From a virus: a stretch of DNA of 64,000 bases. Below are positions 27,395-57,181 of the stretch, one piece after another. The first letter of the stretch is position 1; the number at the start of each line of letters is the position of its first letter. Under the pieces are notes generated by a model, which was not told the origin of the DNA, did no database searches, and worked only from the letters and a program-made list of their open reading frames with translations. The stretch spans positions 1-64,000 of the IMG/VR virus record IMGVR_UViG_3300032313_000840. One strand, written 5' to 3'. A program made the translations under genes and the position numbers.

Positions 27395-27555
27395 CAGGGT
27401 CGATTCAGATGCGGGAGACCAAACCCCACTGCTTCAAGCAGCCATTGCTAATTGGTTAGCAATTATTTTTTGCAACTGTTTATTTGCGACACTTGTTACC
27501 CGTGTCGGGTATCTCCTTCTTCATTACTTTGCGCCAATCTATTCCTTTCGACCCC
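27395..27555 (-). ncRNA. tmRNA coding piece with proteolysis-tag reading frame
   Basis: After the 5' acceptor strand comes pseudoknot PK1. ACCC 27510-27507 pairs with GGGT 27501-27498, and GACAC 27506-27502 pairs with GTGTC 27492-27488. The resume codon GCA (27487-27485) follows directly. The tag frame 27487-27434 encodes ANKQLQKIIANQLAMAA and ends in TGA, itself in a CTGCT/AGCAG hairpin. The tag is longer than the 10-residue E. coli tag and ends in AMAA, close to the ALAA that ClpXP recognises. The 3' end is taken at the following terminator and is approximate. Confidence 0.87.
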
Positions 27556-27651
27556 GGTGACCCGAAGCCTAGGACTTCGGGAAATGCCCCGCTGCTACGA
27601 GGACTTGATTCGCCGTTTTCAGAGGATTGCAGATTCTCTGACTTAGGCTAA

Positions 27652-27715
27652 TGGAGTCGGGGGGATTCGAACCCCCGTCTTGTACGCATTTCAATCCAAT
27701 ATCAACAATACCATT
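27652..27715 (-). ncRNA. tmRNA acceptor piece (tRNA-like 3' domain)
   Basis: The T stem GGGGG/CCCCC (27676-27672 and 27664-27660) closes the canonical loop TTCGAAT. It is followed by the 3' acceptor strand CGACTCC and discriminator A27652. CCA is not encoded. Upstream TGCGT can pair with GCGCA of the coding piece (P2). The 5' end is approximate because tRNA-Tyr ends at 27724. Confidence 0.8.
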
Positions 27716-40998: not shown

Positions 40999-41433
40999 TT
41001 ATCGCCGTCTAGAGAATGCAACCACGGAAGCCATCGCTACAAGCAATCCAATTCCCGGAGCAGGGACATGAGGATGGGGATCGTCAGTGAGTTCTTCAGG
41101 CACAAGATTCATGCAGACGTTTTCAATGCGGTCATACTGAATCGGAATAGTAAAGTCTTGGTCAACCATCTGAATGGTCTTGACAAGATTGCCATTGTTG
41201 TAAATCTTGTAGATCCAATAGCCTTCAGCCCTACCCATGAATAGATTGTTTCCAATAATCAACACTGGAACCGTAGGTAGATTGATTGCTTCCGTAGTCG
41301 GCACAGGCATTGTATAAGACAAATCAAAAGTCAGAGGCTTATCAAAGTGTTCTCCAAGATAAGTCGAACCCTGATAAACGGAACGGTCAATAACCTGACC
41401 GGACATATAAAGAGTAGAAACAGAAGTAATCAT
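40999..41433 (-). CDS. PEP-CTERM-like protein
   Basis: The 144-aa protein ends with the classic tripartite sorting signal: VPAPG (residues 123-127), a hydrophobic helix (IGLLVAMASVVAF) and SRRR at the very C-terminus. PEP-CTERM signals are cut by exosortase/XrtA systems in exopolysaccharide-forming bacteria. The body is beta-rich. No N-terminal signal peptide is visible, which is unusual because sorted proteins are normally Sec substrates. A leaderless promoter drives it. The function is unknown; display on the host surface or diversion of the sorting system are possibilities. Confidence 0.75.
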   Translation of the reverse strand: MITSVSTLYMSGQVIDRSVYQGSTYLGEHFDKPLTFDLSYTMPVPTTEAINLPTVPVLIIGNNLFMGRAEGYWIYKIYNNGNLVKTIQMVDQDFTIPIQYDRIENVCMNLVPEELTDDPHPHVPAPGIGLLVAMASVVAFSRRR

Positions 41434-41438
41434 ATTTT

Positions 41439-41466
41439 ATTATACCTTAATAAAGAAGACAGTCAA
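41439..41466 (-). promoter_or_regulatory. Sigma70-like promoter (leaderless)
   Basis: TTGACT (41466-41461), 16 nt, TATAAT (41444-41439), 5 nt, ATG at 41433. Confidence 0.85.
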
Positions 41467-45180: not shown

Positions 45181-45250
45181 TTTGCCCTTTAACGCCCTTT
45201 AGAGCCCTTTTAAGCCCTTCAAGGCCCCTAGAGAGCCTTTAAAGCCCGTT
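45181..45250. repeat. Seven 10-bp tandem units (nnnGCCCTTT)
   Basis: From 45181 the sequence runs in consecutive 10-bp units: TTTGCCCTTT, AACGCCCTTT, AGAGCCCTTT, TAAGCCCTTC, AAGGCCCCTA, GAGAGCCTTT, AAAGCCCGTT. The period equals about one helical turn, so the GCCCTTT cores would lie on one face of the DNA. No ORF crosses it. Confidence 0.75.
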
Positions 45251-45259
45251 CGCCTATAA

Positions 45260-45900
45260 GGCATTCTAGCCTGTCAAGCAATTCTTAGAGATATTATACA
45301 ATTTTTAAGAAATTTTAGACAATTATAGAAACCGTCCATACAATCCTAGATACCGTCCAGGCAATCCAGGCTCTGTCCAGCTCAATCCCGTCCAAGGGGA
45401 GAGCAATTATTATAATTTCCAGAATACCGTCCTATATCCCGTCCAGACCATGTCCTGGTGTGTGCCATACGGTATACCCCCAGGAACCCCTGATAGTAGC
45501 CAGGATTTTCAGAAATTTTTGAATCCTGTCCTGAATCCCGTCCGCTAATATTTTCAATTTTATTTGAAACTTCCAAGGGACGGATAACCATGGCACCGGC
45601 CAGACCGATAACCACGAGTCCGATAAGTATAGCACCGATAACGGTCAACGTCCGATAACCCCCTGCCTCACATCTGACGATTATAGGACACAGAGGCTGG
45701 GGGGTTATCGGTCGCATGAACAGTCTGATAACTATACACCAGATCTGGGGGTAGTCAAGTACTAGACCACAAGTCCGATAAGACGTCTGAGCTGGAGCTC
45801 CTGGATCCAGGAACCCGGTCCAGTGAATTAATTAAATTATTATTCTGTCCCAGAGACGCTCGCCGGCCTCTCCCAGCTCCAGCTGCACGCCGTCCCGTCC
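45260..45900. repeat. Non-coding region rich in CCGTCCA and GTCCGATAAC motifs
   Basis: No credible gene is seen. Between 45320 and 45560 CCGTCC or CTGTCC occurs about ten times. Between 45580 and 45790 the motif [A/G]CCGATAA[C/G] or its complement occurs about eight times, both orientations. One solitary CTGATAGTAGCC half-site is at 45490-45501. The same motifs recur at 50086-50102 and 58195-58208. An origin, packaging or partition-type site is possible. Confidence 0.5.
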
Positions 45901-45924
45901 AGACTGCTAATATCGCCCCGTCCA

Positions 45925-45985
45925 GACTACTATCAGGGGACGCGGAAATAAATCAAATTTCCTCGGAGGAAATTTGATAGTAGTC
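45925..45985 (-). repeat. CTACTATCA composite terminator element, copy 1
   Basis: Arms GACTACTATCA (45925-45935) and TGATAGTAGTC (45975-45985) enclose an ATCAAATTTCC/GGAAATTTGAT hairpin that reads as a terminator on the minus strand, downstream of the VWA gene. Confidence 0.8.
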
Positions 45986-45999
45986 CAGGTACACAGCCA

Positions 46000-46031
46000 C
46001 CCAGGACTGGCTCTCTCCTTCCAGTCCTGGG
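46000..46031 (-). terminator. Stem-loop after the VWA gene
   Basis: Perfect 11-bp stem CCCAGGACTGG/CCAGTCCTGGG with a 10-nt loop, 27 nt after the stop of the VWA gene. Confidence 0.65.
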
Positions 46032-46057
46032 CGACCATGTATGAATTAAAAACGATC

Positions 46058-48235
46058 TTACCTGCCCTTGCGATCCCGGAACTTCATGCCCTCCGGGAAG
46101 CAGGGGAGTCCGTAGATCCCGGAGTCCATCTTGCGGATGGGCTGACCCGCCACGATGTCCACATACCGGGTGAGGAACACGCGGCTACCTGCCCGCTTGC
46201 CCATCGTCTTGATGAACTGGTTCTTCACCTTGGTGAAGTTACCTCCGGTGGCAATCGCCTCCTCGTCCTTGACGGGCTTCGGGGTCTGAATGAGGAAGTA
46301 CGAATCGTAGCCGGGGAAGGTATCTTCGTGCAGGACGAGGCATCCCTCCTTGAACGCTTCAGCCGCAGCCTTGTACCGCTCCGAATCTCCAACGGTCACA
46401 CCACCCTTGTAGTGATGGGAGATCGAATCGGCATTCTTCTGCTTCTCCTGTTCGCTCAAGCAGAACTGCTCAAAGCAGCGTTCCGTCAGGATACGAGTGG
46501 GCATCACATACATTCCAACGCATCGGGCGTTCAACTTGGTGCGGAGCGAATTGAGCATGGCGCAGATGACGCCATCGGGCAGATTCGTCCTGCCGTTCTT
46601 GTTGTCGATGACGGTGACCGTATCAAGGATCTCGTTCGTCACGGTGAGGGAAGTACCTTCGCCGTACCAGTAGACTCCATCCTCCTTGGAGGTGCTGATG
46701 TGGTTGGGGCAACCGTCCGTCACGACCATGATCGTGGGGATCTGAATGTTGTTCTCCTGCACCCATCCCGCCATAAACTGGGAAGTGAGGGCAATGCACT
46801 CCACCGTGGGCGTACCGTTCAGGGTGAGGTAACGGGAAGTGGGGCGGGTCTGCTGCACATAGGTTTCGTAGATGTACGCACACAGACGCTCACGCTTGGC
46901 CGCATCGTCCTTGGAGGAGGCAATGTTCAGCAGCCTAGCCGTCCCGATGTGCATACCCGTGGGGCAGTCACGATTCAAAGCCTGCGCGCACCATTCACGG
47001 TCGAACTCGTAGGAGAACTTGTCGGGGTTTTGCTTCCTCCATGCATCACACGCAGCCTGATACTCGGGATCAAGGTTGCCGTAGACATCGGTGTAGCCGA
47101 ACACCTCAAACGGGATCTTCGCCTTCTCGCAGAACCACACCAACTGGAGAACCTGAAGGTAGGCGTGGCCGATGGTCTGACCCATGCTGCCGCTGAAGTC
47201 AAGCATGAACACGATGCCGTGGTTCTTGCCGTCCTGCTTGACGATCTTCGACAGGAAGATATCGTCATGGGTGCGGTACTGGTGGAGGCGGTCAAGGTTC
47301 AGCATCCCGGTCTGCTTCGGACGCTCACGGCGGATCTCGTCCGCAGCCTTCTTGCGCTCAAACTGCGCGGCCATCTGACGGACGAACGCATCGGACTCAC
47401 GGACGAACTGGCGGTACTCCTCAAGGAGCAGCGGCCTGTTGCTGTTGCCCTCGTAGTCGTTGAGGATGGTTTCCGTGCTGATGATGTGCTTGGACAGATC
47501 CTTGACCCCGGTGATGGTGACCACCGCGTCCTGATACTGCGAACCGTCCTTGCGGCGGAAGTCACCGGGGACATCGTTCTTGTCGCCCATGATCTTGTCC
47601 TGCTCCTTCTCACCCTGCTTGCCACCCTTGGCAGCAGCAGCCTCCATCTCCTCGCGCATCTTCTTCATGGAGGGGTGGTCGTACAGGAACTTGGCGACCT
47701 CAAAGACCTGATCGAAATTGACCACACCGTCCACCATGTCCACGACCTCCTGCTCCGTCCCCTCAAAGGTCATGGGGATGAAGCCGGGGATGCCGAACTT
47801 GAAGTGAATGTTGAGACGATTGAGGAACCCGGCCTTCGCCAAGTCCATCTTCTTGAAGCCGAACAGGTCAAGGTCTGCGATCTCCTTGTAGCCAAGGAAG
47901 AAGTCACGGCGAGTGCCGGGGAACTTCTGCTTCATCAACTTCTCGATGCGGACATCTTCGATGATGTTGGCGATCCGCTGAAGGAGCATGGCGTTGTAGC
48001 CGTCCGCCTCCGCAGCCTTCAACAACTCCTCGCTGCGCTCGTAGGGAGTCCACATGGCGTGGCTGATCTCGTGGGCCACGAGCATGGTCTTGACGGTTTC
48101 GGTCACATCCCACATCGGCATGATGAGGTGACGCGACTTGACATCGAACGATGCGGTTTCAGCGTCCTTGGAGAAGGAGAACGAAATGTTCTCGGATGCG
48201 AGAGCCTTGGCAAAGATGGAGAGAGAGGTGTTCAT
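46058..48235 (-). CDS. Metallopeptidase-like/VWA-domain protein
   Basis: This is a 725-aa protein. Near the N-terminus VAHEISHAMW gives the zinc-peptidase motif HEISH at residues 55-59. A long charged middle leads to a von Willebrand A domain with MIDAS motif DFSGS at about residues 346-350 and VVTDGCPNH further on. This resembles VWA proteins with N-terminal putative metallopeptidase domain (DUF2201 type) that partner MoxR ATPases. The MoxR-like gene lies one gene upstream on the same strand. GC-rich codon use. The start at 48235 is fixed by a leaderless promoter. Role: probable remodelling or activation of a target complex. Confidence 0.82.
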   Translation of the reverse strand: MNTSLSIFAKALASENISFSFSKDAETASFDVKSRHLIMPMWDVTETVKTMLVAHEISHAMWTPYERSEELLKAAEADGYNAMLLQRIANIIEDVRIEKLMKQKFPGTRRDFFLGYKEIADLDLFGFKKMDLAKAGFLNRLNIHFKFGIPGFIPMTFEGTEQEVVDMVDGVVNFDQVFEVAKFLYDHPSMKKMREEMEAAAAKGGKQGEKEQDKIMGDKNDVPGDFRRKDGSQYQDAVVTITGVKDLSKHIISTETILNDYEGNSNRPLLLEEYRQFVRESDAFVRQMAAQFERKKAADEIRRERPKQTGMLNLDRLHQYRTHDDIFLSKIVKQDGKNHGIVFMLDFSGSMGQTIGHAYLQVLQLVWFCEKAKIPFEVFGYTDVYGNLDPEYQAACDAWRKQNPDKFSYEFDREWCAQALNRDCPTGMHIGTARLLNIASSKDDAAKRERLCAYIYETYVQQTRPTSRYLTLNGTPTVECIALTSQFMAGWVQENNIQIPTIMVVTDGCPNHISTSKEDGVYWYGEGTSLTVTNEILDTVTVIDNKNGRTNLPDGVICAMLNSLRTKLNARCVGMYVMPTRILTERCFEQFCLSEQEKQKNADSISHHYKGGVTVGDSERYKAAAEAFKEGCLVLHEDTFPGYDSYFLIQTPKPVKDEEAIATGGNFTKVKNQFIKTMGKRAGSRVFLTRYVDIVAGQPIRKMDSGIYGLPCFPEGMKFRDRKGR

Positions 48236-48241
48236 GCGCAC

Positions 48242-48270
48242 ATTGTAACCGATGCGGGGGAAGAAGTCAA
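48242..48270 (-). promoter_or_regulatory. Sigma70-like promoter of the VWA gene (leaderless)
   Basis: TTGACT (48270-48265), 17 nt, TACAAT (48247-48242), 6 nt, ATG at 48235. Confidence 0.88.
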
Positions 48271-48291
48271 CCCACAAACAAAGTTTATTTT

Positions 48292-48371
48292 GCGTCCCAT
48301 AACGTCCTGTCTGGCTACTATCAGGGCGTCCAATAAAATCAGAAAGCCCAGACGGGCTTTCTGATAGTAGC
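48292..48371 (-). repeat. CTACTATCA composite terminator element, copy 2
   Basis: GCGTCCCATAACGTCC (48292-48307), GGCTACTATCAG (48313-48324), hairpin ATCAGAAAGCCC/GGGCTTTCTGAT (48338-48365) and CTGATAGTAGC (48361-48371). On the minus strand the hairpin is followed by TTTTATT, a good intrinsic terminator. Confidence 0.88.
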
Positions 48372-48380
48372 TCACAGATG

Positions 48381-48411
48381 CTGCCTCTCCCCCCGCAAGG
48401 GGGGGAGAGGC
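48381..48411 (-). terminator. GC-rich stem-loop after the gene at 48422-48643
   Basis: CCTCTCCCCCC/GGGGGGAGAGG with a CTTG-type loop, between the stop codon and composite element 2. Confidence 0.65.
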
Positions 48412-48421
48412 ATGAACAGCA

Positions 48422-48643
48422 TCAGACGGTGACGGGAGCAATCAGAGGCGTCAGATCGTAGACGCCCTTGCTGTCCGTCTTGCAGTCCTTCAGCACCCAA
48501 GTCGGGATGCCCTTCATGTTGATGGACTGTGCGACTGCGAGGAGGTCGGCCTTGCTGAAGTTGTTGGTGTTACCGCCGTGAACGGTATCCGCGAACTGCT
48601 TGGCTGCGGCGACGAAACGATTGCGCTTGTTGAGGTATGGCAT
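48422..48643 (-). CDS. Small hypothetical protein in the MoxR/VWA operon
   Basis: The 73-aa protein reads MPYLNKRNRFVAAAKQFADT with a middle LLAVAQSINMKGIPTWVLKD. It lies 22 nt downstream of the MoxR-like gene, with AAGAAAG before its ATG, so it is cotranscribed and could be a third component of that system. No family is recognised. Confidence 0.6.
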   Translation of the reverse strand: MPYLNKRNRFVAAAKQFADTVHGGNTNNFSKADLLAVAQSINMKGIPTWVLKDCKTDSKGVYDLTPLIAPVTV

Positions 48644-48665
48644 TTTCTTTTTCTTTCTTTCTTGG

Positions 48666-50015
48666 TTAGGCGTTCATGGCGTACTGGGTGTCGGTGTCGG
48701 GGTTGGACAACTTATCCAACTGTGCTTTCAATTCTGCGATCTTCTTCTGCTCTGCGGTCAGAGAGTTCACCGGGTTGCTCACCGGGGCATCCTTCATCCC
48801 CTCCGGGACAGGGAGGATCGTGGGGTCGATCTTCGTGTAGAGGTTGAAGAACGCCTCCTTCGTGGACGCATCGAACCGCGTCAGCGTCAACTTGATGGCC
48901 TTCTCCTTGTCGCCAAAGATGGCGAACGCCTTGCACACTTCCTCCAAGCGGCGGGTGGTGATGATGTCATCCAGTCCGCCCTCCTTGAAGCCCATGCGGA
49001 TCGTTTCCGCCCACTTCGTGAGGTACTGGGCGAACTCCTTGTCCTCCTTGCCGTATGCCTTCATCTTGCGGATGATGATACGCGCTTCGATGGTGCGATC
49101 CGCGTAGTCCTGCTCAAACCAGTAGGAGAAGCGGTCAAGGAACGCCTCGTTCATGCAGCGCGTACCCACGAACCGATCAGACTCGCCCTTGCCCTTGGTG
49201 TTGGCAGTCGCCACCACATTGAAGCCGGAAGCGGGCTTGATGAACATACCGATCTTCTTGATGTAGATGCCCTTGCCCTCAAGCACGGGCTGAAGGCACA
49301 TCATGCGCTCCGTCCCGAGGTCGATCTCGTCCAACAGGAGGATAGAGCCGCGCTGCATGGCCTGAACCACGCCACCGAACACGAACTTCGTTTCGCCGTT
49401 GACGAGGCGGAAGCCACCGATGAGGTCATCCTCGTCCGTTTCGGCGGTGATGTTGACGCGAATGCACTCGCGGCCCGTGGAGGCGCAAATCTGCTCCACC
49501 ATCGTGGTCTTGCCGTTGCCGGACATACCCGTGATGTAGACGGGAGCGAACTGCTTGGAGGCGAGGATGGTGGAGATGTCATCGTGGTGACCCCACGGAA
49601 CGAAAGTCTCGTTCTTGACGGGGACGAGCGAAACATCGGAGGACGGCATGACGAGGTTGTAGGTGTTGCTGTTCATGTTGCTGATTGTATCACAAGTTTC
49701 GGAGGAAGTCAAGGTTTCGGAAGAAGATTCGGAAATATTTTCTTCCACGGTATCGGACTCTGCGGGATTGTATTCAAGCACGACCATCTCCGGGATGATG
49801 TACTTGCCACGACCTGCACGGCGGTTCTTGGGCTGAACCAGCCAAGCCGGGAGGACTCTGTAGGAATGCTCGCTACTAAGGGCATAGGACTGGCCAAGTG
49901 CCTCAAGGCATTGCTCACGGGTGTAGACTGCTTCCCCGATGGTCTGCGGAGTGCCGAACAGGATCTGAAGGGCATTGAGGAAGTTACGCTTGCGAATGTC
50001 GATGTTGCTGTTCAT
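48666..50015 (-). CDS. MoxR/CobS-like AAA+ ATPase
   Basis: This is a 449-aa protein. Residues 1-140 are an N-terminal adaptor with a basic MNSNIDIRKRNFL start. The AAA+ core has Walker A GMSGNGKTT (about 162-170), ETDEDDLIGGFRL, Walker B GSILLLDEID, VVATANTKGKGE (sensor 1) and RFSYWFEQDY with the arginine of sensor 2 nearby. CobS-type ATPases power cobaltochelatase with the VWA protein CobT; MoxR ATPases remodel complexes with VWA partners. The VWA-metallopeptidase gene downstream supports the second reading. The tail is a short coiled coil. Confidence 0.87.
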   Translation of the reverse strand: MNSNIDIRKRNFLNALQILFGTPQTIGEAVYTREQCLEALGQSYALSSEHSYRVLPAWLVQPKNRRAGRGKYIIPEMVVLEYNPAESDTVEENISESSSETLTSSETCDTISNMNSNTYNLVMPSSDVSLVPVKNETFVPWGHHDDISTILASKQFAPVYITGMSGNGKTTMVEQICASTGRECIRVNITAETDEDDLIGGFRLVNGETKFVFGGVVQAMQRGSILLLDEIDLGTERMMCLQPVLEGKGIYIKKIGMFIKPASGFNVVATANTKGKGESDRFVGTRCMNEAFLDRFSYWFEQDYADRTIEARIIIRKMKAYGKEDKEFAQYLTKWAETIRMGFKEGGLDDIITTRRLEEVCKAFAIFGDKEKAIKLTLTRFDASTKEAFFNLYTKIDPTILPVPEGMKDAPVSNPVNSLTAEQKKIAELKAQLDKLSNPDTDTQYAMNA

Positions 50016-50021
50016 GCCGCA

Positions 50022-50050
50022 ATCTTACCACACAATCTTTCTAAAGTCAA
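50022..50050 (-). promoter_or_regulatory. Sigma70-like promoter of the MoxR-like gene (leaderless)
   Basis: TTGACT (50050-50045), 17 nt, TAAGAT (50027-50022), 6 nt, ATG at 50015. Confidence 0.8.
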
Positions 50051-50085
50051 GTTTGGTCTGAAGATTTTTTATCCAGGTCCGATAA

Positions 50086-50167
50086 CCGGTCCGATAACGT
50101 CCACTACTATCATAATAATATAAACAGCCTCAGAAATTCGCTTAAAGGGCGAATTTCTGATAGTAGC
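50086..50167 (-). repeat. CTACTATCA composite terminator element, copy 3
   Basis: GTCCGATAACC and CCGATAACGTCC (50087-50102), CACTACTATCA (50102-50112), hairpin TCAGAAATTCGC/GCGAATTTCTGA (50130-50160) and TGATAGTAGC (50158-50167). The T tract is weaker here than in the other copies. Confidence 0.82.
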
Positions 50168-50177
50168 TCAAAGAAAC

Positions 50178-50199
50178 AACCCCCGCTTGCGCGGGGGTT
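50178..50199 (-). terminator. Stem-loop after the gene at 50242-50487
   Basis: AACCCCCGC/GCGGGGGTT with TTGC loop, between that gene's stop and composite element 3. Confidence 0.65.
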
Positions 50200-50241
50200 G
50201 GTATGAAAGGGAGTTTATCTCCCCGGCATCTCACCGGGTAC

Positions 50242-50487
50242 TTACACTCCCGTATTGTAGTAGTTCTTCTCGGTCTTGGACTCGCTGACCCTGCAAATCT
50301 TTTCAAGGGCCACGATGCGCTGCCACAACTTCTCTTGCTCAAGGTAGAGATCCTTGACCATCTCGTCTTGATGACGAACGATGCTGTTCAACTTCTCGTT
50401 CAGTCGAACGCGGAAGTAGGCGATGGCGAAGTAGGCGGCACCTGCGAGGGTGATGATGGTGACGAGCGTGTTGAGATCAATGTTCAT
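50242..50487 (-). CDS. Small membrane-anchored coiled-coil protein
   Basis: This is an 81-aa protein with an N-terminal TM (LVTIITLAGAAYFAIAYFRV) followed by a coiled coil (EKLNSIVRHQDEMVKDLYLE) and a polar tail. The topology, a membrane anchor plus cytoplasmic helix, is common in small phage proteins affecting host envelope or superinfection, but no function is recognised. It is driven by its own leaderless promoter. Confidence 0.65.
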   Translation of the reverse strand: MNIDLNTLVTIITLAGAAYFAIAYFRVRLNEKLNSIVRHQDEMVKDLYLEQEKLWQRIVALEKICRVSESKTEKNYYNTGV

Positions 50488-50493
50488 GTCTCT

Positions 50494-50521
50494 ATTATAC
50501 CTCTTGGTTTGGGGTTGTCAA
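50494..50521 (-). promoter_or_regulatory. Sigma70-like promoter (leaderless)
   Basis: TTGACA (50521-50516), 16 nt, TATAAT (50499-50494), 6 nt, ATG at 50487. Perfect consensus hexamers. Confidence 0.9.
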
Positions 50522-50589
50522 GTCTCGGACGGAAAAAAAGTTTCTTTTAGTTACAACATCTGACCTAAATATAAGGAGGTGTTATAACT

Positions 50590-50967
50590 ATGAGACCAAA
50601 GAAAAATTTTTGGAAATGTCAGGACTGTGGAGTGGAACTAAAACGGAAACAAGTTCGATGCCGTGGATGCCATGATATCAGGCATCCTGATATGACCATT
50701 GAAGAATCGGCTTATGGTGACAAAGGTTGGCCAAACACTTATGCACGTATCAGAGATAAGGCCAAGTATGTCGTTAAGCATCTTGAATGGACCTGCTGTC
50801 GCAATTGTGGGTATGACAAACATTTTGAAATTTGTCATATCAAAGCCATAAAAGATTTTTCAAAAGACACTTTATTAAGTGTAGTGAACGATCCTTCTAA
50901 CCTTGTTCCTCTATGCCCAAATTGCCATTGGGAGTTTGATAGAGGAATCTTAAAATTGGACGGGTGA
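50590..50967 (+). CDS. HNH endonuclease with N-terminal zinc ribbon
   Basis: In this 125-aa protein, an N-terminal zinc ribbon (CQDCGVELKRKQVRCRGC) is followed by a typical phage HNH core: WTCCRNCGYDKHFEICHIKA, then NLVPLCPNCHWEFD. AAGGAGG before the ATG gives it one of the strongest Shine-Dalgarno sequences in the window, unlike its leaderless neighbours, which suits a recently arrived homing-type gene. Its last 12 bp overlap the 3' end of the opposite-strand tRNA-Ile. Confidence 0.85.
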   Translation: MRPKKNFWKCQDCGVELKRKQVRCRGCHDIRHPDMTIEESAYGDKGWPNTYARIRDKAKYVVKHLEWTCCRNCGYDKHFEICHIKAIKDFSKDTLLSVVNDPSNLVPLCPNCHWEFDRGILKLDG

Positions 50968-51038
50968 GATTCGAACTCACGATGCCGAAGCGGGCAATTA
51001 TAAGTCGCCTGCTGCTCTCCACCGCAGCGCGCCGTCCA
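50956..51038 (-). tRNA. tRNA-Ile (anticodon TAT)
   Basis: Acceptor TGGACGG/CCGTCCA; anticodon stem GGCGA/TTGCC with loop CTTATAA; T arm GTGAG-TTCGAAT-CTCAC. It would read AUA codons, frequent in the AT-rich late genes. No CCA. Confidence 0.9.
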
Positions 51039-51148
51039 GTGGTGGAGCCTTCATACGGATGCTCCGGTGTCCGTGCAACCGTAGGTTGCCTCTATACGGT
51101 TGTTGTAGTTACCGCCAAACTCATTAATAATATATCTGATTGAGGTAC

Positions 51149-51176
51149 ATTGTACCACCTCTTTCTTGTTTGTCAA
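51149..51176 (-). promoter_or_regulatory. Sigma70-like promoter for tRNA-Ile
   Basis: TTGACA (51176-51171), 16 nt, TACAAT (51154-51149), about 105 nt upstream of tRNA-Ile; the transcribed spacer holds two small hairpins and no gene. Confidence 0.75.
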
Positions 51177-51177
51177 G

Positions 51178-51251
51178 CGTTCCCGGCAGGATTCGAACCT
51201 GCAACCTACAGATTAGAAATCTGTGGCACTATCCAGTTGTGCTACGGGAAC
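51178..51251 (-). tRNA. tRNA-Arg (anticodon TCT)
   Basis: Acceptor GTTCCCG/CGGGAAC; anticodon stem ACAGA/TCTGT with loop TTTCTAA; T arm GCAGG-TTCGAAT-CCTGC. No CCA. Confidence 0.93.
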
Positions 51252-51378
51252 AAATCGGAAGGGACTACTTCAACGGTACTAGGGGAAGAATGCATTTTTC
51301 TTTTAATACATTCCGCAAACCCACCGACCGTCTTCATACCCTTCCGGGTTGGGTGCCTTGAAGAAGGACACCCGGTAA

Positions 51379-51463
51379 TAGCGCGGGCGGGATTCGAACC
51401 CGCAATGTTTCTTATGTATCAGATTTTGAGTCTGACGTGTTTCGCCAGTTTCACCACCGCGCC
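51379..51463 (-). tRNA. tRNA-Leu (anticodon CAA)
   Basis: Acceptor GGCGCGG/CCGCGCT; anticodon stem TCAGA/TCTGA around CTCAAAA; long variable arm as in tRNA-Leu; T arm GCGGG-TTCGAAT-CCCGC. No CCA. Confidence 0.92.
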
Positions 51464-51471
51464 ATGTAGGT

Positions 51472-51500
51472 ATTGTATCATACCTTTGTTGTCTTGTCAA
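51472..51500 (-). promoter_or_regulatory. Sigma70-like promoter for tRNA-Leu and tRNA-Arg
   Basis: TTGACA (51500-51495), 17 nt, TACAAT (51477-51472), 8 nt to the tRNA-Leu 5' end. It lies within the last codons of the HNH gene. Confidence 0.82.
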
Positions 51501-51948
51501 GTCTCTTTTTGTTTCTGAAGTTATCGGTTGTTGAGTGACAGTTTGGGCAGAGAAGTTGAAGATTGGTTAGTTCGTTGTTCACTCTGTTGCCATCTACATG
51601 GTGAACTTCCAAAGCAATCGGAGACTGTAACCAAGTATCATTGTTGCAGGACTCACATCTATGTCCTCTCAATTTTACTAAATTGATTTTAAGTCTGTGA
51701 TTGTTTGTATACTGAGACCAATCTTTTTGCTGTGCGTCTTTATTCCATGCTTGGCCCTTCCAATGGCTAGTATCGATGGAATATTTTTGCAAATACTTTT
51801 TAGCAGTTTGGTAATTGCTTCCAGCCCTGCTGTCGTTCAATCCCAACTCTCTCAAGAATCCTGCAAGAGATGTAACTTTTGCAGCAATCTCGGCCAGTTC
51901 TTCTTTGGTCTTGCTCCCGATGGTGTTGTATTTCTTTCTCATAGGCAT
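51478..51948 (-). CDS. HNH endonuclease (free-standing)
   Basis: In this 156-aa protein, the N-terminal half is a helix-rich DNA-binding region (EELAEIAAKVTSLAGFLREL), followed by a CESCNNDTWLQSPIALEVHH and NRVNNELTNLQLLCPNCHST core, with CxxC pairs and HH/N/H. The family includes intron-encoded and free-standing homing nucleases. AGGAG precedes the ATG and a TCTAAATA box lies before it. It separates the tRNA-Lys unit from the tRNA-Leu/Arg unit. Confidence 0.85.
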   Translation of the reverse strand: MPMRKKYNTIGSKTKEELAEIAAKVTSLAGFLRELGLNDSRAGSNYQTAKKYLQKYSIDTSHWKGQAWNKDAQQKDWSQYTNNHRLKINLVKLRGHRCESCNNDTWLQSPIALEVHHVDGNRVNNELTNLQLLCPNCHSTTDNFRNKKRLDKTTKV

Positions 51949-51982
51949 AGGCTCCTATACCTATTTAGAAACCTATGCCATT

Positions 51983-52279
51983 CTAAAACAGATCGGGGGT
52001 GCTGTCAAGATTTTTCTTTTTGTTTTCCGTCAGCCCAAACTTCTCATGCAGTTCCTCGTAGAACTCTGCGTTGGGTCGAACCACCTGCTCGTGGAGTCGG
52101 TTGCCGTTGATGGCAATCTGCGCTCCCTCTACTGCATCGTAGTAGGCGGTGATCAGATCCTGTGGAGGGTTGGCATTGCCTTCAAGCCAATGTTCCATGA
52201 TCAGGTCTGCGACAATTGCAACCCTGTCGTACATCTGCAGGGCGAAGATTTTTTCATCGAAGTCTAGTGGGGTGTTCAT
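51983..52279 (-). CDS. Small hypothetical protein cotranscribed with tRNA-Lys
   Basis: This 98-aa helical acidic protein starts MNTPLDFDEKIFALQMYDRV; the middle LITAYYDAVEGAQIAINGNR. The start at 52279 is preceded by GGAGAAAACAAC. It lies 15 nt after tRNA-Lys on the same transcript. Shares the MNT start of island genes. Function unknown. Confidence 0.6.
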   Translation of the reverse strand: MNTPLDFDEKIFALQMYDRVAIVADLIMEHWLEGNANPPQDLITAYYDAVEGAQIAINGNRLHEQVVRPNAEFYEELHEKFGLTENKKKNLDSTPDLF

Positions 52280-52294
52280 GTTGTTTTCTCCGAA

Positions 52295-52367
52295 TGGGTC
52301 CGGTGGGACTTGAACCCACAACCAATAGATTAAAAGTCTACTGCGCTACCAATTGCGCTACGAACCC
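52295..52367 (-). tRNA. tRNA-Lys (anticodon TTT)
   Basis: Acceptor GGGTTCG/CGGACCC; D arm with AATTGGTAGCGC; anticodon stem TAGA/TCTA around CTTTTAA; T arm GTGGG-TTCAAGT-CCCAC. No CCA. Confidence 0.93.
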
Positions 52368-52375
52368 GAATGCCC

Positions 52376-52404
52376 ATTGTAACCGATGGGCTGCGGTTTG
52401 TCAA
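52376..52404 (-). promoter_or_regulatory. Sigma70-like promoter for tRNA-Lys
   Basis: TTGACA (52404-52399), 17 nt, TACAAT (52381-52376), 8 nt to the tRNA 5' end. Confidence 0.85.
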
Positions 52405-52405
52405 G

Positions 52406-52762
52406 TCAGGATTCGAAGTCCTCGTCCGCATCCGGGTCGAACGGGTAGTACTCCCGCTCCATCTGACCTGCGTACTCCTCGTAGGTCATCTCCATGACCT
52501 GTGCGATCATCATCATGAAGGCGGCGAAACCCAAGTGAATCTCGGGCACCCTTCCGTCTGCCTTCTCGGTCAACATCCAGTTGGTGACGTACTGGATCCC
52601 GTTGGCGACGATCATGCGCTGACCCTCGTCCTTGTAGAAGTTCGGGTGTTCACCTGCGAACTGCATCAGGGTCTTGACGACATCCAACGGGTCGGGCTTG
52701 AAAGCCCCCATGTCGATGTTCTTGCGGGTGAAGAAACCATCGTACTTGTTCTGCGGTGACAT
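52406..52762 (-). CDS. Small hypothetical protein
   Basis: In this 118-aa protein the central helical part is MIVANGIQYVTNWMLTEKAD and GFAAFMMMIAQVMEMTYEEY; the C-terminus is acidic (DPDADEDFES). AAGGAG precedes the ATG, and one base overlaps the stop of the upstream gene. Function unknown. Confidence 0.6.
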   Translation of the reverse strand: MSPQNKYDGFFTRKNIDMGAFKPDPLDVVKTLMQFAGEHPNFYKDEGQRMIVANGIQYVTNWMLTEKADGRVPEIHLGFAAFMMMIAQVMEMTYEEYAGQMEREYYPFDPDADEDFES

Positions 52763-52980
52763 TAGCGAATCTCCTTGAGGGTGGTGTGCAGGGACATGAC
52801 GAACTCGTATTCTTCTTCGGTGACCATATCAGGGCCGCTGATCTGCGTCAGGATGAAGTAGCCTTGAGCGAGGCGGGCAATGTCCTCATCGTACTCGGCC
52901 CAATCGGGGTGTTCGGTGACGAAGTTTGCGATCTCGTTGATGAGGTCGGAGATGTCGGTGGTGGTGGTGGGCTTTCTCAT
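52762..52980 (-). CDS. Small acidic early protein
   Basis: This 72-aa protein reads MRKPTTTTDISDLINEIANF, with a helical Asp/Glu-rich remainder. It follows a perfect TTGACA-N17-TACAAT promoter with six bases to the ATG. The stop overlaps the next start by one base. Function unknown. Confidence 0.65.
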   Translation of the reverse strand: MRKPTTTTDISDLINEIANFVTEHPDWAEYDEDIARLAQGYFILTQISGPDMVTEEEYEFVMSLHTTLKEIR

Positions 52981-53294
52981 GTCGGTATTGTAACAGATTC
53001 GGGGACTGGTGTCAAGGTCACGCTGTGAAAATGTTTTACTTGTTTTGCGTACCGGATGAAACTGTGCATCTTGTCATCCGGCAGTTCGACCGACATGTTT
53101 ATTGTGTAGGTGTCGATGCCGAAAACAAAACTTTGATCTACGTGCGTGTTCATTCGAACATCGAACATCCCGGTCGGATCTGCGAGGGCCAGGCATTGGA
53201 ACACACTCTTGACCATCTTCTGCAACCTGCGCTTATGCCATCCCATGGAATGGGTCAGCGGGGAATGCATCTCAATGGTGACGGTGGCGATCAT
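52977..53294 (-). CDS. Hypothetical protein
   Basis: This 105-aa beta-rich protein with basic N-terminal half (MGWHKRRLQKMVKSVFQCLA) and IDTYTINMSVELPDD. It overlaps the acidic gene upstream by four bases (ATGA), so it is translated by coupling. The promoter of the next gene lies within its 3' part. Function unknown. Confidence 0.6.
   Translation of the reverse strand: MIATVTIEMHSPLTHSMGWHKRRLQKMVKSVFQCLALADPTGMFDVRMNTHVDQSFVFGIDTYTINMSVELPDDKMHSFIRYAKQVKHFHSVTLTPVPESVTIPT
52987..53015 (-). promoter_or_regulatory. Sigma70-like promoter (leaderless)
   Basis: TTGACA (53015-53010), 17 nt, TACAAT (52992-52987), 6 nt, ATG at 52980. Confidence 0.88.
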
Positions 53295-53527
53295 TCGAAG
53301 TCTCCGTCATCGATGAAGTCGGGAACATCCCGGTCAAGGTCATCGTCGCCGTAGCAGTAGTCATCGTCAGAGTCGTACAGCCCGACCATGCGCTTGGCTT
53401 CTTCTTCGGTGTAGCCATCTTCCACCAGTTCAGCAACGGCTTCTTCCTCGGTAACATCGTCAAGGCAGGAGTCGTAGGCGTGATCGTCGTTGTCGTAGTC
53501 GCTGTCAATGTCGTAGGAGTTGTTCAT
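53291..53527 (-). CDS. Very acidic small protein
   Basis: This is a 78-aa, Asp/Glu/Tyr-rich protein (YDIDSDYDNDDHAYDSCLDD; DSDDDYCYGDDDLDRDVPDF). Such DNA-mimic composition is seen in phage anti-restriction or inhibitor proteins, but no specific family is recognised. The start at 53527 is fixed by the promoter six bases upstream. It is the first gene of a two-gene unit after composite element 4. Confidence 0.62.
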   Translation of the reverse strand: MNNSYDIDSDYDNDDHAYDSCLDDVTEEEAVAELVEDGYTEEEAKRMVGLYDSDDDYCYGDDDLDRDVPDFIDDGDFE

Positions 53528-53533
53528 GCCGGC

Positions 53534-53562
53534 ATGGTAACACAGGATCCAAGGGAAGTCAA
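53534..53562 (-). promoter_or_regulatory. Sigma70-like promoter (leaderless)
   Basis: TTGACT (53562-53557), 17 nt, TACCAT (53539-53534), 6 nt, ATG at 53527. Confidence 0.85.
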
Positions 53563-53582
53563 GAGAAAGAGAAAATATATTT

Positions 53583-53665
53583 GGCGTCCCATAACGTCCT
53601 GTCCGGGCTACTATCAGGGGGCGCATAAAAATCAGATTCCCTCAGAGGGAATCTGATAGTAGCCC
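53583..53665 (-). repeat. CTACTATCA composite terminator element, copy 4
   Basis: GGCGTCCCATAACGTCC (53583-53599), GGGCTACTATCAG (53605-53617), hairpin ATCAGATTCCCTC/GAGGGAATCTGAT with T run on the minus strand, CTGATAGTAGCCC (53653-53665). Arms are 13-nt perfect inverted repeats. Confidence 0.9.
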
Positions 53666-53804
53666 AAAGAACATGACCCACCCTAAAGAGGATGGGTCAG
53701 AGGTTTTGGAGGCTCGGTTACCTCCATGCCTTCTCCCGTTGCAACCGGAAGAATTGGTTTCAGGGCCCAGACCTAGGCCAACGCTCAAGCCCATCCCGTA
53801 TTTT
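53666..53804. other. Non-coding spacer with stem-loop
   Basis: No ORF is seen. TGACCCA...TGGGTCA (53674-53699) forms a hairpin next to composite element 4. The rest, up to the stop of the gene at 53805, holds a short GGGCCCAGACCTAGGCC palindrome-rich stretch. Confidence 0.5.
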
Positions 53805-54104
53805 TTAGTTCATGTTCAGCATCTTCTCCGTCTTGCGAGAGTATGCTCCGATCCCGTCGATCTTATCCTCACCGATCAGGATCCAGTCCTTCTTGATGAT
53901 GTCGAAGGCGCAGATGTAGCCTTCGATGGTGTGACGAGCACCAGTCGGCAGGTTGCCTCCCAGTTGCTTGATGAACACGGGGTCAGTCGTGATCTCACGC
54001 GAGGTTGGGGTGCCGTCCTTCTTCCTGAACGACACAAAGAGCGTATCGTTGTTGGAGAGAGCAACGCGAAGAATCGTGGACATCGGAAGTTCGGTGGTGT
54101 TCAT
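53805..54104 (-). CDS. Small hypothetical protein
   Basis: This 99-aa beta-rich protein reads MNTTELPMSTILRVALSNND then FVSFRKKDGTPTSREITTDP and GYICAFDIIKKDWILIGEDK, a compact OB- or SH3-like pattern, unassigned. The start at 54104 is fixed by the promoter; upstream in-frame ATGs lie beyond it. Function unknown. Confidence 0.62.
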   Translation of the reverse strand: MNTTELPMSTILRVALSNNDTLFVSFRKKDGTPTSREITTDPVFIKQLGGNLPTGARHTIEGYICAFDIIKKDWILIGEDKIDGIGAYSRKTEKMLNMN

Positions 54105-54110
54105 GTGGGT

Positions 54111-54139
54111 ATTGTACCTTGTGTGAGTGCGAAAGTCAA
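54111..54139 (-). promoter_or_regulatory. Sigma70-like promoter (leaderless)
   Basis: TTGACT (54139-54134), 17 nt, TACAAT (54116-54111), 6 nt, ATG at 54104. Confidence 0.88.
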
Positions 54140-54165
54140 GTGGCGTGTAGATTTCTTTTAAACTT

Positions 54166-54193
54166 CCTCCCGGCCCCTTGCGGGGCCGGGAGG
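54166..54193 (-). terminator. GC-rich intrinsic terminator
   Basis: CCTCCCGGCCCC/GGGGCCGGGAGG with loop TTGC; on the minus strand followed by AAGTTTAAAAG. It ends the two-gene unit 54211-54867. Confidence 0.75.
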
Positions 54194-54210
54194 CTACATG
54201 CACCACCATG

Positions 54211-54600
54211 TTAGATCGGGAGGTTGACATTGCCGAACTGGGCGAAGTGACGGTTGAAGCATTCCGTCACGATGTTCTCAAGCGGCATGATCCTGACGCC
54301 AGTCTCCTTGAAGGAGGCGTCCGCTGCCTGTGCGTAGTAGGACACCGATCCGTCACGGATGTTGTCCACGAACTCCTGCCAGTCCAAACCCAGTTCCGTC
54401 ACGATCATGTAGACGAGGGTCTTTTCGGCATCGGTGAACCAGTCGAACGGCAGGGACACGGTGATCTCGCACAGGGCGAGGGCGGCGTTGATCTCGGCGG
54501 GTTCGTTCTTGAACTCCGGCGTCTTGTTGGCGGTCAGGACGAGGGAAACAACGAGGTCATCGATCTTGGCGAGGCGGACGGGCTTGGTGGTGTTCTTCAT
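54211..54600 (-). CDS. Hypothetical protein
   Basis: This 129-aa helical protein starts MKNTTKPVRLAKIDDLVVSL; contains EITVSLPFDWFTDAEKTLVY. AAGGA precedes the ATG, and it follows the gene at 54619 by 18 nt, with a similar MKN(S/T)TT start, as if the 5' ends were copied. Function unknown. Confidence 0.6.
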   Translation of the reverse strand: MKNTTKPVRLAKIDDLVVSLVLTANKTPEFKNEPAEINAALALCEITVSLPFDWFTDAEKTLVYMIVTELGLDWQEFVDNIRDGSVSYYAQAADASFKETGVRIMPLENIVTECFNRHFAQFGNVNLPI

Positions 54601-54618
54601 GGTGGTGTTCCTTGTGGG

Positions 54619-54867
54619 TTAGGCGGCGAGAATCTTCTTGATGCGTTCGTCAGCACGGCGGGACATATCGGCGTCCAGTTCACGGGCCTTCTTCGCCTCC
54701 TCCTTGATGCGGCACAGGAGATACTGCAGTCCTTGGAGGTCGTTTTCTTCCATGTAGTCTGCGATGCCCTCCAAGTAGAGGAGCGAGGAGGCGAGGTAAC
54801 CGTAGGCGTAGGCGTGGTCGTGGGTGACGGAGGCGGGGATCTTGACGGTGGTGGTGCTGTTCTTCAT
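54619..54867 (-). CDS. Small helical early protein
   Basis: This 82-aa protein reads MKNSTTTVKIPASVTHDHAY, with a long charged C-terminal helix (CRIKEEAKKARELDADMSRR). TACAAT lies six bases before the ATG. Function unknown. Confidence 0.62.
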   Translation of the reverse strand: MKNSTTTVKIPASVTHDHAYAYGYLASSLLYLEGIADYMEENDLQGLQYLLCRIKEEAKKARELDADMSRRADERIKKILAA

Positions 54868-54873
54868 GTCGGT

Positions 54874-54902
54874 ATTGTAACAGGTCGGGGTGCGAAAGTA
54901 AA
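54874..54902 (-). promoter_or_regulatory. Sigma70-like promoter (leaderless)
   Basis: TTTACT (54902-54897), 17 nt, TACAAT (54879-54874), 6 nt, ATG at 54867. -35 deviates at one base from the other copies. Confidence 0.78.
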
Positions 54903-54937
54903 GGGGGACAGAAAGAATATTTCGCTTTCTGTCCCCC
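54903..54937 (-). terminator. Intrinsic terminator
   Basis: GGGGGACAGAAAG/CTTTCTGTCCCCC, 13-bp stem, after the gene at 54949-55212 on the minus strand. Confidence 0.75.
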
Positions 54938-54948
54938 CATGCAGGGGT

Positions 54949-55212
54949 TCAGGTGAGCGGGATTCCGTACTTCGCCTCAAGGGCTTCCTTCATGCCGGCG
55001 AGAACCTTCTCGCGGTTGCCCTTCAGACCGTACTCCTTCTTGGCGAGAGCGTAGCAGGAGACGCCACGGGTCAGGCGCATCGGGGTGCCACGGGCTGCGG
55101 TCTTGATTTCGAACTTCAGACCGTTGTAGATCATCAGTTCCCGGTAGGCGCAGATCTGTTCGGGGGTGTCGAGCATGATGCCGCCGTCGTTGTTGTTGGT
55201 GGTGCTGTTCAT
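54949..55212 (-). CDS. Small hypothetical protein
   Basis: In this 87-aa protein, the first 15 residues are Asn/Ser/Thr (MNSTTNNNDGG), then a compact basic domain (CYALAKKEYGLKGNREKVLA, ending EAKYGIPLT). The layout of the last 40 residues hints at a small helical nucleic-acid binder. The start at 55212 is set by the promoter. Function unknown. Confidence 0.62.
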   Translation of the reverse strand: MNSTTNNNDGGIMLDTPEQICAYRELMIYNGLKFEIKTAARGTPMRLTRGVSCYALAKKEYGLKGNREKVLAGMKEALEAKYGIPLT

Positions 55213-55218
55213 GCGTAC

Positions 55219-55247
55219 ATTGTAACACACCTCGGTTGAAATTGCAA
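55219..55247 (-). promoter_or_regulatory. Sigma70-like promoter (leaderless)
   Basis: TTGCAA (55247-55242), 17 nt, TACAAT (55224-55219), 6 nt, ATG at 55212. Confidence 0.82.
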
Positions 55248-55267
55248 ACGCAAAGAAAGAAATATTT

Positions 55268-55358
55268 GGCGTCCTATAACGTCCACTGGGCGGCGGGCTA
55301 CTATCACGCGCCGTCCAATAAAAAATCAGGAAGTCCCTAGGGACTTCCTGATAGTAGC
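55268..55358 (-). repeat. CTACTATCA composite terminator element, copy 5
   Basis: GGCGTCCTATAACGTCC (55268-55284), GGGCTACTATCA (55295-55306), hairpin ATCAGGAAGTCCC/GGGACTTCCTGAT with a six-T run on the minus strand, CTGATAGTAGC (55348-55358). Confidence 0.9.
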
Positions 55359-55499
55359 TCAGCCCTCGCTGGCCACTTCCCTTTTCCCCTCCCTCCGCGC
55401 CTTCCGGGGGTCCCGGCTCTTCTTGCCCCAGGTTTTGGAGCGAAGCCGGATTCCCTCCCGGAAGGCGTCATGGACGAATTTGGCTGGGCGGTGGTTCAT
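55359..55499 (-). CDS. Small very basic protein (46 aa)
   Basis: This protein reads MNHRPAKFVHDAFREGIRLR, then SKTWGKKSRDPRKARREGKR; about one third Arg/Lys. It starts in an ATGA overlap with the 188-aa gene upstream. Its stop sits directly at composite element 5. Likely nucleic-acid binding by composition; no family. Confidence 0.55.
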   Translation of the reverse strand: MNHRPAKFVHDAFREGIRLRSKTWGKKSRDPRKARREGKREVASEG

Positions 55500-56062
55500 T
55501 CGGCCTTCCCCCGAACGATGATCCACAGCAGGGCCTGCAGCGTGGCGGGGGCCATGCACACGGCACCCGTTCCGGCGATGGTGCGGATCGCGTCCGCGAT
55601 GGCCCGGTACTCGGTCGCGTTGGGCGCATCCTTGCCCAGTCCCGCAGCGCGGCACATCCACACATCCACGACCACCGCGTCACGGTCTCCGGCGATGGCA
55701 CGTGCGAACGCGTTGGTCTTCGGGCCGCGCAGGCCGTTGAAGCCCTGCCGGACGCATCGGTCGGCAGCGTCCACGTGGGAGCGGAGACCCTTCGGCGTGA
55801 TGCCCTGCGCGTACTGGTATGCCTTAGCCTTGTTGTGCGCCCACGTCACGCGGGGCGAGAATGCGGACACAACGGACGCGGACACTTCCATGCTCCACTC
55901 GGGGCGCAGTACGCGCAGCGACTCCGCGAAGTCTCCGGCCTCAACGTACCACTTCTGCGCGGCAGCGTAGTCGAAGAGGGTAGCCGATGCGAGGTGGCTG
56001 ATGAAGGATTCGATGGCGCGGGTGCGGACGGTTTCGTAACGGTTGGTGTGGGTGGTGCTCAT
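55496..56062 (-). CDS. Phage protein with helix-hairpin-helix-like pattern
   Basis: In this 188-aa protein, VSAFSPRVTWAHNKAKAYQY, GLRGPKTNAFARAIAGDRDA and VVVDVWMCRAAGL form the pattern of a conserved actinophage/phage family (DUF7178-like) that resembles HhH DNA-glycosylase cores, with an Asp after the GPKTxAF loop. The biochemical role is unknown. MSTTHTNRYETV is the N-terminus of the promoter-defined start; GC-rich coding. Confidence 0.65.
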   Translation of the reverse strand: MSTTHTNRYETVRTRAIESFISHLASATLFDYAAAQKWYVEAGDFAESLRVLRPEWSMEVSASVVSAFSPRVTWAHNKAKAYQYAQGITPKGLRSHVDAADRCVRQGFNGLRGPKTNAFARAIAGDRDAVVVDVWMCRAAGLGKDAPNATEYRAIADAIRTIAGTGAVCMAPATLQALLWIIVRGKAE

Positions 56063-56068
56063 GCGTAC

Positions 56069-56097
56069 ATTGTACCATGCCATGCCGGCTATGTCAA
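56069..56097 (-). promoter_or_regulatory. Sigma70-like promoter (leaderless)
   Basis: TTGACA (56097-56092), 17 nt, TACAAT (56074-56069), 6 nt, ATG at 56062. Confidence 0.88.
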
Positions 56098-56128
56098 TGG
56101 GTGGGGGCGGAATATTATAAATTCTTTC

Positions 56129-56223
56129 GCGTCCCATAACGCATCCAGGTGGGCCGGCTACTATCAGGCTCACCGCGTCCAGTCCCATAACATCAGCGGC
56201 CTCTGAGGCCGCTGATAGTAGCC
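56129..56223 (-). repeat. CTACTATCA composite terminator element, copy 6
   Basis: GCGTCCCATAACGC (56129-56142), GGCTACTATCAG (56156-56167), a second GTCCCATAAC (56182-56191), hairpin ATCAGCGGCCTC/GAGGCCGCTGAT, CTGATAGTAGCC (56212-56223). No T run follows the hairpin here. Confidence 0.85.
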
Positions 56224-56314
56224 CCGCCCCATAAACAACCTAGCCCCGAACGAATCGGGGCAGGGACGAATCCTTTTCGGTTGGTACGAGCACCACCTCG
56301 TTAGTTTATTGAAA
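56224..56314. other. Non-coding spacer with two stem-loops
   Basis: No ORF is seen. CCCCGA...TCGGGG near 56245-56262 and ACGAG...CTCGT near 56286-56302 form hairpins between the tRNA-like sequence and composite element 6. Confidence 0.5.
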
Positions 56315-56398
56315 GCGTAGTGGAGGACTTGCACCTCTGTTGCTCTGTATCAGATTGCTTTGATCAAAGCAACCCTAGCAGCCTGACGCTGGCTACGC
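56315..56398 (-). other. Aberrant tRNA-like structure (loop reads GAT)
   Basis: Minus strand: GCGTAG at the 5' end pairs with CTACGC at the 3' end. A CAGC/GCTG arm with a 5-nt loop occupies the D position. Stem TTGCT/AGCAA closes loop TTGATCA (anticodon GAT), and GAGG/CCTC closes a T-like loop TGCAAGT. The D loop is too short and lacks GG. It may be a degenerate or specialised tRNA. Confidence 0.4.
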
Positions 56399-56407
56399 GA
56401 AGTTTGG

Positions 56408-56638: not shown

Positions 56639-56644
56639 GTCGGT

Positions 56645-56673
56645 ATTGTATCAGTTCGTGGTGCGTATGTCAA
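56645..56673 (-). promoter_or_regulatory. Sigma70-like promoter (leaderless)
   Basis: TTGACA (56673-56668), 17 nt, TACAAT (56650-56645; here followed by ACCGAC), ATG at 56638. Confidence 0.88.
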
Positions 56674-56689
56674 GTGCGCCGAAAGAAAT

Positions 56690-57037: not shown

Positions 57038-57043
57038 GGCACC

Positions 57044-57072
57044 ATTGTACCATAGACTGCTGCTGATGTCAA
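57044..57072 (-). promoter_or_regulatory. Sigma70-like promoter (leaderless)
   Basis: TTGACA (57072-57067), 17 nt, TACAAT (57049-57044), 6 nt, ATG at 57037. Confidence 0.88.
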
Positions 57073-57175: not shown

Positions 57176-57181
57176 ACTCAC

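Follow-up and report, generated by a model that had tools for sequence, protein, structure and literature searches.

PEP-CTERM-like C-terminal tails on a family of phage proteins without a signal peptide: phages may borrow a bacterial surface-sorting pathway

Protein sorting by exosortase is known from cellular genomes, and the LPXTG/sortase substrates of Gram-positive prophages share the idea that a phage gene uses a host sorting enzyme. In the description of the PEP-CTERM/exosortase (EpsH) system by Haft et al. (2006; PMC1569441), a signal peptide is present in 97% of PEP-CTERM proteins after start correction. Tripartite C-terminal sorting signals, which the phage tails considered here resemble, are also described for MYXO-CTERM/myxosortase and GlyGly-CTERM/rhombosortase (PMC11980579; PMC3237569), and PMC3087755 documents bacterial tail-anchored proteins with the N-terminus out. 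In titles and the starts of abstracts of the open PMC literature, which largely leaves aside subscription journals and preprints, we found no treatment of phage-coded PEP-CTERM proteins; in the passages of PMC12642866 that concern them, the PEP-CTERM genes are the cyanobacterium's own.

The DNA analysed here (“the window”) is a stretch of 64,000 nucleotides, positions 1 to 64,000 of the IMG/VR record IMGVR_UViG_3300032313_000840, a virus contig of 81,931 bp; the DNA polymerase of this record is 41% identical to those of Synechococcus phages, which we take to be T4-like. A first-pass annotation had reported a tail of VPAPG, 13 hydrophobic residues and SRRR on a 144-aa protein. We find this open reading frame, P0001, at exactly 40999-41433, and it lies on the minus strand, which had not been given:

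40999-41433, minus strand: P0001 coding sequence, 144 aa; small acidic body and C-terminal sorting-type tail, without N-terminal signal
41068-41433, minus strand: P0001 body, residues 1-122; predicted beta strands (low confidence)
41002-41067, minus strand: P0001 tail, residues 123-144; VPAPG, 13 hydrophobic residues and SRRR
41438-41444, minus strand: TATAATA promoter-like box, 4 nt before the P0001 ATG; late-type, leaderless-looking layout

The protein ends ...DDPHPHVPAPGIGLLVAMASVVAFSRRR, in which HVPAPG is followed by IGLLVAMASVVAF (the 13 hydrophobic residues) and by SRRR and the stop codon, while residues 1-121 of the body have a net charge of -8 and 5.0% K+R. The earlier statement that a Sec signal is missing holds: there is no hydrophobic stretch at the N-terminus, and the 36 bases between the stop of the upstream gene (41470) and the start codon of P0001 (41433) leave no space for an overlooked signal peptide. 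An AlphaFold model of P0001 is weak (pLDDT 60.9) and consists of beta strands with a C-terminal helix at residues 126-143; a fold search of the PDB with this model gave no match (best E 0.42), and PDB sequence searches with profiles of the family gave nothing significant. Weak, sub-threshold matches to the N-terminal model of MARTX (some 16 of 700 bits), to vanR-D (best E 0.026) and to an RbmA-like FnIII domain (best E 0.04) were dismissed, the last being a lead only. Elsewhere in the window, a permuted tmRNA gene (27434-27712, minus strand; Rfam RF04321, 75.2 bits; ARAGORN tag ANQLAMAA) adjoins genes for tRNA-Tyr and tRNA-Gly, and an island at 45200-58400, mostly 50-60% GC in a phage of about 38% GC, holds many small open reading frames together with peptidase-like (46058-48277) and AAA-ATPase-like (48666-50015) genes and matches to phrog_459 and phrog_249; parts of the island are kept in the sibling record G016 and a piece of it in G043.

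Single-sequence searches with P0001 returned nothing from IMG/VR and nothing from 50,697 phage records, and one with the homologue L057 returned nothing from the phage records. Relatives were reached only via a second tailed protein, P0002, and profile searches, and were found stepwise: three among 18 sibling records, 32 loci by profile, and finally 65 loci. With identical proteins collapsed before counting, the family comprises 59 distinct proteins at 66 loci (the window and 65 IMG/VR loci). The search patterns were placed in the body, outside the tail, so that the tails were not selected for. A strict tripartite rule (P-x-P/A, then hydrophobic, then basic), written after the tails had been seen, is passed by 53 of the 59 members from the wider search and by 30 of 30 distinct homologues in a narrower set; the remaining six have looser tails of the same kind, for example DVPAPGVLAILGIAAILTKNTFRKE and VPSPASIVILICSAIFSLRKTSRNA. 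Mean column identity among 30 members is 52%, and 8 of 9 invariant residues are in the body. P0001 is a member of a phage-specific family with small, acidic, probably beta-rich bodies and an exosortase-type (PEP-CTERM/PGAP-like) end. Some homologues have a Cys immediately before the tail motif. In 45 of the 59 members one Cys or more occurs in the roughly 26 residues that precede the tail, in some as CPDCP or CGRGNDC, and these residues would suit an oxidising, extracytoplasmic location.

A motif scan of the open reading frames in the window gave two matches only, P0001 and the unrelated P0002:

1784-2476, minus strand: P0002 coding sequence, 230 aa; N-terminal Cys motif, membrane segment, conserved C-terminal block and tail
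1787-1861, minus strand: P0002 tail, STPTPGPVVLTGFAMLMFAPTRQRN, from the motif scan

The relatives of P0002 in IMG/VR likewise have the N-terminal Cys motif, the membrane segment and the conserved block before the tail. The tripartite rule is passed by 10 of 20 of these proteins, the misses being two short tail-less relatives (L019 and L021) and eight with Asn/Gln or other helix variants. The next gene after the P0002 relatives encodes P212 (210-215 aa), whose N-terminus is Sec-like and whose C-terminus reads, for example, VVIPAPGSAALVAVAAICGYKKRRR; all 14 viral P212 proteins pass the rule, and a count of 18 includes four non-viral, tail-less body matches. The record of the window is without P212 at the site adjacent to P0002 and has there another open reading frame, presumably dUTPase-like. 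Beside P0002, at 2554-3903 (minus strand), lie a lipoprotein-like open reading frame (2554-2856) and two that match phrog_38283 and phrog_14038; these three genes are possibly an envelope or lysis cluster.

In all, four tailed families besides that of P0001 occur in the same or sibling phages, and three of them (P212, L082 and L055) have Sec-like N-termini. L082, a protein of 224 aa in record G039 with such an N-terminus, is unrelated to P0001 and ends APAPSAIALLGLAGIVGRRRR; its family is found at 30 viral loci (L110-L139, for example L131:3004-3669), with proteins of about 220 aa and very canonical APTPGAIALLGMAGLVGRRRR-type tails. L055, which is directly upstream of a P0001-family member and ends VPAPGCLPLLFGGSFIRSRRRN, belongs to a family at four loci. 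Tailed L055 relatives are carried by the viral contigs L142 and L143 (146,719 and 61,722 bp), and the one in L142 ends EAVPAPGAFALGMVSFVFGTSRRRK. Single genomes carry several unrelated tailed proteins: P0001 and P0002 in the window, P0001, P0002 and P212 in both G016 and G008, and members of the P0001 and L082 families together in G039. When the C-terminal 32 residues of 4639 distinct open reading frames were searched with an HMM made from the tails of the P0001 family only, the best outside matches were the tails of P212 (from 3e-8), P0002 and L082 (0.003); the L055 tail (E 0.6) was among chance-level matches.

For P212 the structure prediction is good (pLDDT 79.9), and its PDB fold matches are carbohydrate-binding modules (8xmz, E 5e-8; CBM61, CBM4, CBM22, CBM16); the modelled fold would suit a protein at a polysaccharide surface. 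When genome contigs were scanned with the P212 alignment, the body domain turned up without a tail at five loci, which lie in actinobacterial, Bacillota and Coriobacteriia records. On plasmids (13 records) the proteins similar to the body include isopeptide-forming fimbrial, SpaA and DUF11 proteins, and in phage records it was found in only four unannotated Listeria phage records; the L082 protein gave no match on plasmids.

These observations lead us to propose that phages may borrow a bacterial surface-sorting pathway. P0001 would be produced late in infection. As it has no Sec signal, its C-terminal helix would act as a reverse signal-anchor and insert the protein so that the body faces outwards and the RRR end stays in the cytoplasm. 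This orientation would bring the P-x-P-G motif to the inner membrane's outer face, open to binding and cleavage by a host exosortase, and the freed body would move on to the surface of the infected cell or into its exopolysaccharide layer and alter it, which could exclude superinfecting phages or change adhesion and release. The sibling phages' other tailed proteins, some with ordinary Sec-like signals, would follow the same route. Tails are exchanged between phage lineages, perhaps fitting the exosortase of a new host. We hold this course as a whole with belief and doubt in about equal measure.

The absence of a signal peptide is a property of the family. Among 30 members whose starts were set at the conserved Met, 12-residue hydropathy over residues 1-40 peaks at -0.02 to 1.65, against 1.71-2.75 in 14 P212 and 1.87-2.8 in 13 L082-family proteins; counted from the longest possible start, two of 59 members reach 2.0, in each case because of residues that precede the conserved Met. 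Set beside the 97% of PEP-CTERM proteins that have a signal, this counts against the exosortase reading. The bodies have 2.5-5.7% K+R (30 members; median 13% in 56 open reading frames of the window) and are net negative in 59 of 59, while the tails carry +2 to +6 in 30 of 30; by the positive-inside rule, this combination favours a body outside and an end inside. The virion-like surface proteins of the same phage are K+R-poor as well, which again counts against the exosortase reading. Body length in the family is 118-129 aa. The E. coli protein ProW is an example with a translocated N-tail of about 100 residues. For Oxa1/YidC about 50 residues are described as usual, segments over about 100 generally needing SecY (PMC7616256), so that bodies of this length present a difficulty for translocation without a signal.

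The same features would also suit a plain tail-anchored protein of the inner membrane, serving for example in superinfection exclusion or lysis timing, which never meets an exosortase and whose prolines break the helix before the anchor. It would need no signal peptide, the helix at 126-143 and the basic end agree with it, there are the N-terminus-out proteins described in PMC3087755, and the scores of P0001 itself are sub-threshold: 15.8 bits with the PGAP-CTERM model NF050189 (cut-off 25) and, for its record, 13.6 bits with PF07589 (cut-off 20.7), with no match in a Pfam scan of the protein. Taken alone, P0001 is unconvincing as a PEP-CTERM protein and the case rests on its relatives. The search with PEP-CTERM models that the first-pass annotation had proposed thus leaves P0001 itself below the cut-offs; within the family, 15 of 30 members match TIGR02595 at E<=1, 10 of 30 match PF07589, and one homologue, L026 (65% identical to P0001, ending DCPEPATGMLIALSGAVLFGRKRKS), is above the TIGR02595 cut-off of 16 with 19.1 bits. 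The P212 protein L073 reaches 16.1 bits with the same model; these two are the only ones over the cut-off among 10 proteins, which were picked by eye and give no rate. The tails of the L082 family, by eye the most canonical, score 13.1 of 16 bits in the member shown. The MYXO-CTERM and other models match some phage tails weakly, so that the models alone do not settle the sorting enzyme. Against a plain anchor stand the P-x-P/A that 53 of 59 members keep at the membrane border by the strict rule, the recurrence of the motif in unrelated families of the same phages, several of them with Sec-like N-termini, and the score of L026; we consider a plain anchor rather unlikely, though deserving of attention.

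Exosortase (PF09721) was found in none of 34 phage records, many of them fragments, so that an enzyme of the host would be needed. The P212 alignment scan of genome contigs revealed no host of the tailed phages, and a Phycisphaera plasmid gave no PEP-CTERM match; Planctomycetota might be thought of as hosts from a possible likeness to their tails, and we do not claim them as such. A tail on a small body that lacks the usual export signal, in phages whose 34 records show no exosortase, could also be a decoy that occupies or jams the host enzyme and so blocks the display of the host's own surface or polysaccharide-linked proteins. We think this improbable, since a mere decoy does not need bodies as well conserved as these (mean column identity 52%, 8 of 9 invariant residues) and the sibling proteins with Sec-like N-termini resemble real cargo. 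The carbohydrate-binding-module-like fold of P212, together with the lack of exosortase in the phage records searched, leads us to favour the display of phage cargo by an exosortase of the host, which would probably serve to change the surface of the infected cell.

The first-pass annotation had called P0001 an early protein, and here we differ from it: TATAATA stands 4 nt before the ATG, a placing shared with T4-late-like TATAAATA boxes at other genes of the window, and 4-5 nt before the start in two other genes. The sequence TATAAATA, which we take to be the T4 late box, occurs 8 times in the window, 6 times within 45 nt of the start of an open reading frame, and 4 of those are 3-5 nt before the start. 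These positions suggest late, leaderless-looking genes, and that P0001 is not early. Boxes of either type 3-5 nt before the start are found for the genes at 1266, 16663, 19835, 28215, 31190, 35600 and 40999.

A late-type box would also be expected of a virion component, with a K/R-poor beta body on the particle and a tail that binds the membrane or another virion protein; the K+R content of P0001 is nearly as low as that of the virion-like proteins of the window, among them the one encoded at 265-1014, which matches phrog_8510, a virion structural protein. The P0001 gene, however, stands amid matches to non-structural functions (phosphoesterase, GroES, nucleotidyl/adenylyltransferase), and a virion role leaves the same tail on Sec-like proteins unexplained; it seems to us an improbable function.

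How often such a tail arises by chance was gauged in several ways. When the last 30 residues of P0001 were shuffled 200,000 times, the tripartite arrangement arose 105 times; the rule matches five of 4571 unrelated open reading frames, L082 and L055 (real tailed phage proteins) being among these five, and a mean of 1.15 of 4571 shuffled C-termini. Conservation in the P0001 family is stronger evidence than these counts. Speaking against the exosortase reading, PF07589 is above its cut-off in none of the 34 phage records. An ordinary hydrophobic C-terminus or a chimeric contig, for which the weak PF07589 match might speak (at E<=10, 13 of 14 control genomes match too), is a reading that we give hardly any credence and that is refuted by the family, as 59 distinct homologues at 66 loci keep a tail of this kind and PF07589 at E<=0.1 matches 10 of the 34 phage records against 1 of the 14 controls.

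By sequence comparison, the tail of the P0001 family behaves as a module, swapped among phage relatives. P0001 is a mosaic. Over residues 1-100 its identity is 82% to L023 and 44% to L031, whereas residues 101-144 are 79% identical to L031 and 26% to L023, so that the tail shares its lineage with L031/L032 and the exchange point is near codon 100. MaxChi on codons, with L023 and L031 chosen as parents after these identities had been seen, used 168 informative sites and placed the breakpoint at about codon 100; L023 is matched at 100 of 112 sites before it and at 8 of 56 after it, a result reached by none of 2000 permutations. Between the homologues L026 and L027, identity is 99% in the body and 44% in the tail; 17 nucleotides differ among the 381 positions before the tail and 35 among the 72 within it (gaps counted). 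A chimeric assembly may lie behind this difference, the L026 contig being short; against this, the L026 tail is in frame and is the best PEP-CTERM match among the 10 scanned proteins. More tentatively, the tails may be interchangeable zip codes, in which one tail would be insertion signal, topology signal and exosortase substrate in a Sec-less protein, and recombination would swap tails to fit the exosortase that each host has, in which case the host could be read from the tail type; we find this idea possible and somewhat doubtful.

If phages supply their own exosortase cargo, infected cells would bear surface or matrix proteins made by the phage, of which some have a carbohydrate-binding-module-like fold. 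This would matter for superinfection exclusion, for the formation of biofilms and particles, and for the search for hosts of uncultured T4-like phages. The signal-less P0001 family would offer a clean test of whether a PEP-CTERM-type tail by itself brings a protein to exosortase.

To our knowledge, bacterial tail-anchored proteins have no conserved P-x-P-G motif. The phage tails differ from them further in being exchanged between lineages and common to Sec-like proteins, and are like them, as described in PMC3087755, in the missing N-terminal signal, the single C-terminal helix and the basic residues after it that predict an N-terminus out. With LPXTG/sortase neither motif, enzyme nor envelope agrees: the phages here are uncultured and T4-like, and P0001 reads HVPAPG, without LPXTG. 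The P0001 tail lacks the Cys that is invariant in the MYXO-CTERM signature motif, and has no Gly-Gly before the helix as in GlyGly-CTERM/rhombosortase. The likeness to PEP-CTERM/exosortase as set out in PMC1569441 extends to the C-terminal proline motif, single hydrophobic helix and basic end, to the several unrelated tailed proteins per genome whose bodies are mostly without known relatives, and to the composition of extracellular proteins; the tails here differ in being phage-encoded, without an exosortase gene alongside in any of the 34 records, and in motifs that are mostly PAP or PSP with G rather than PEP.
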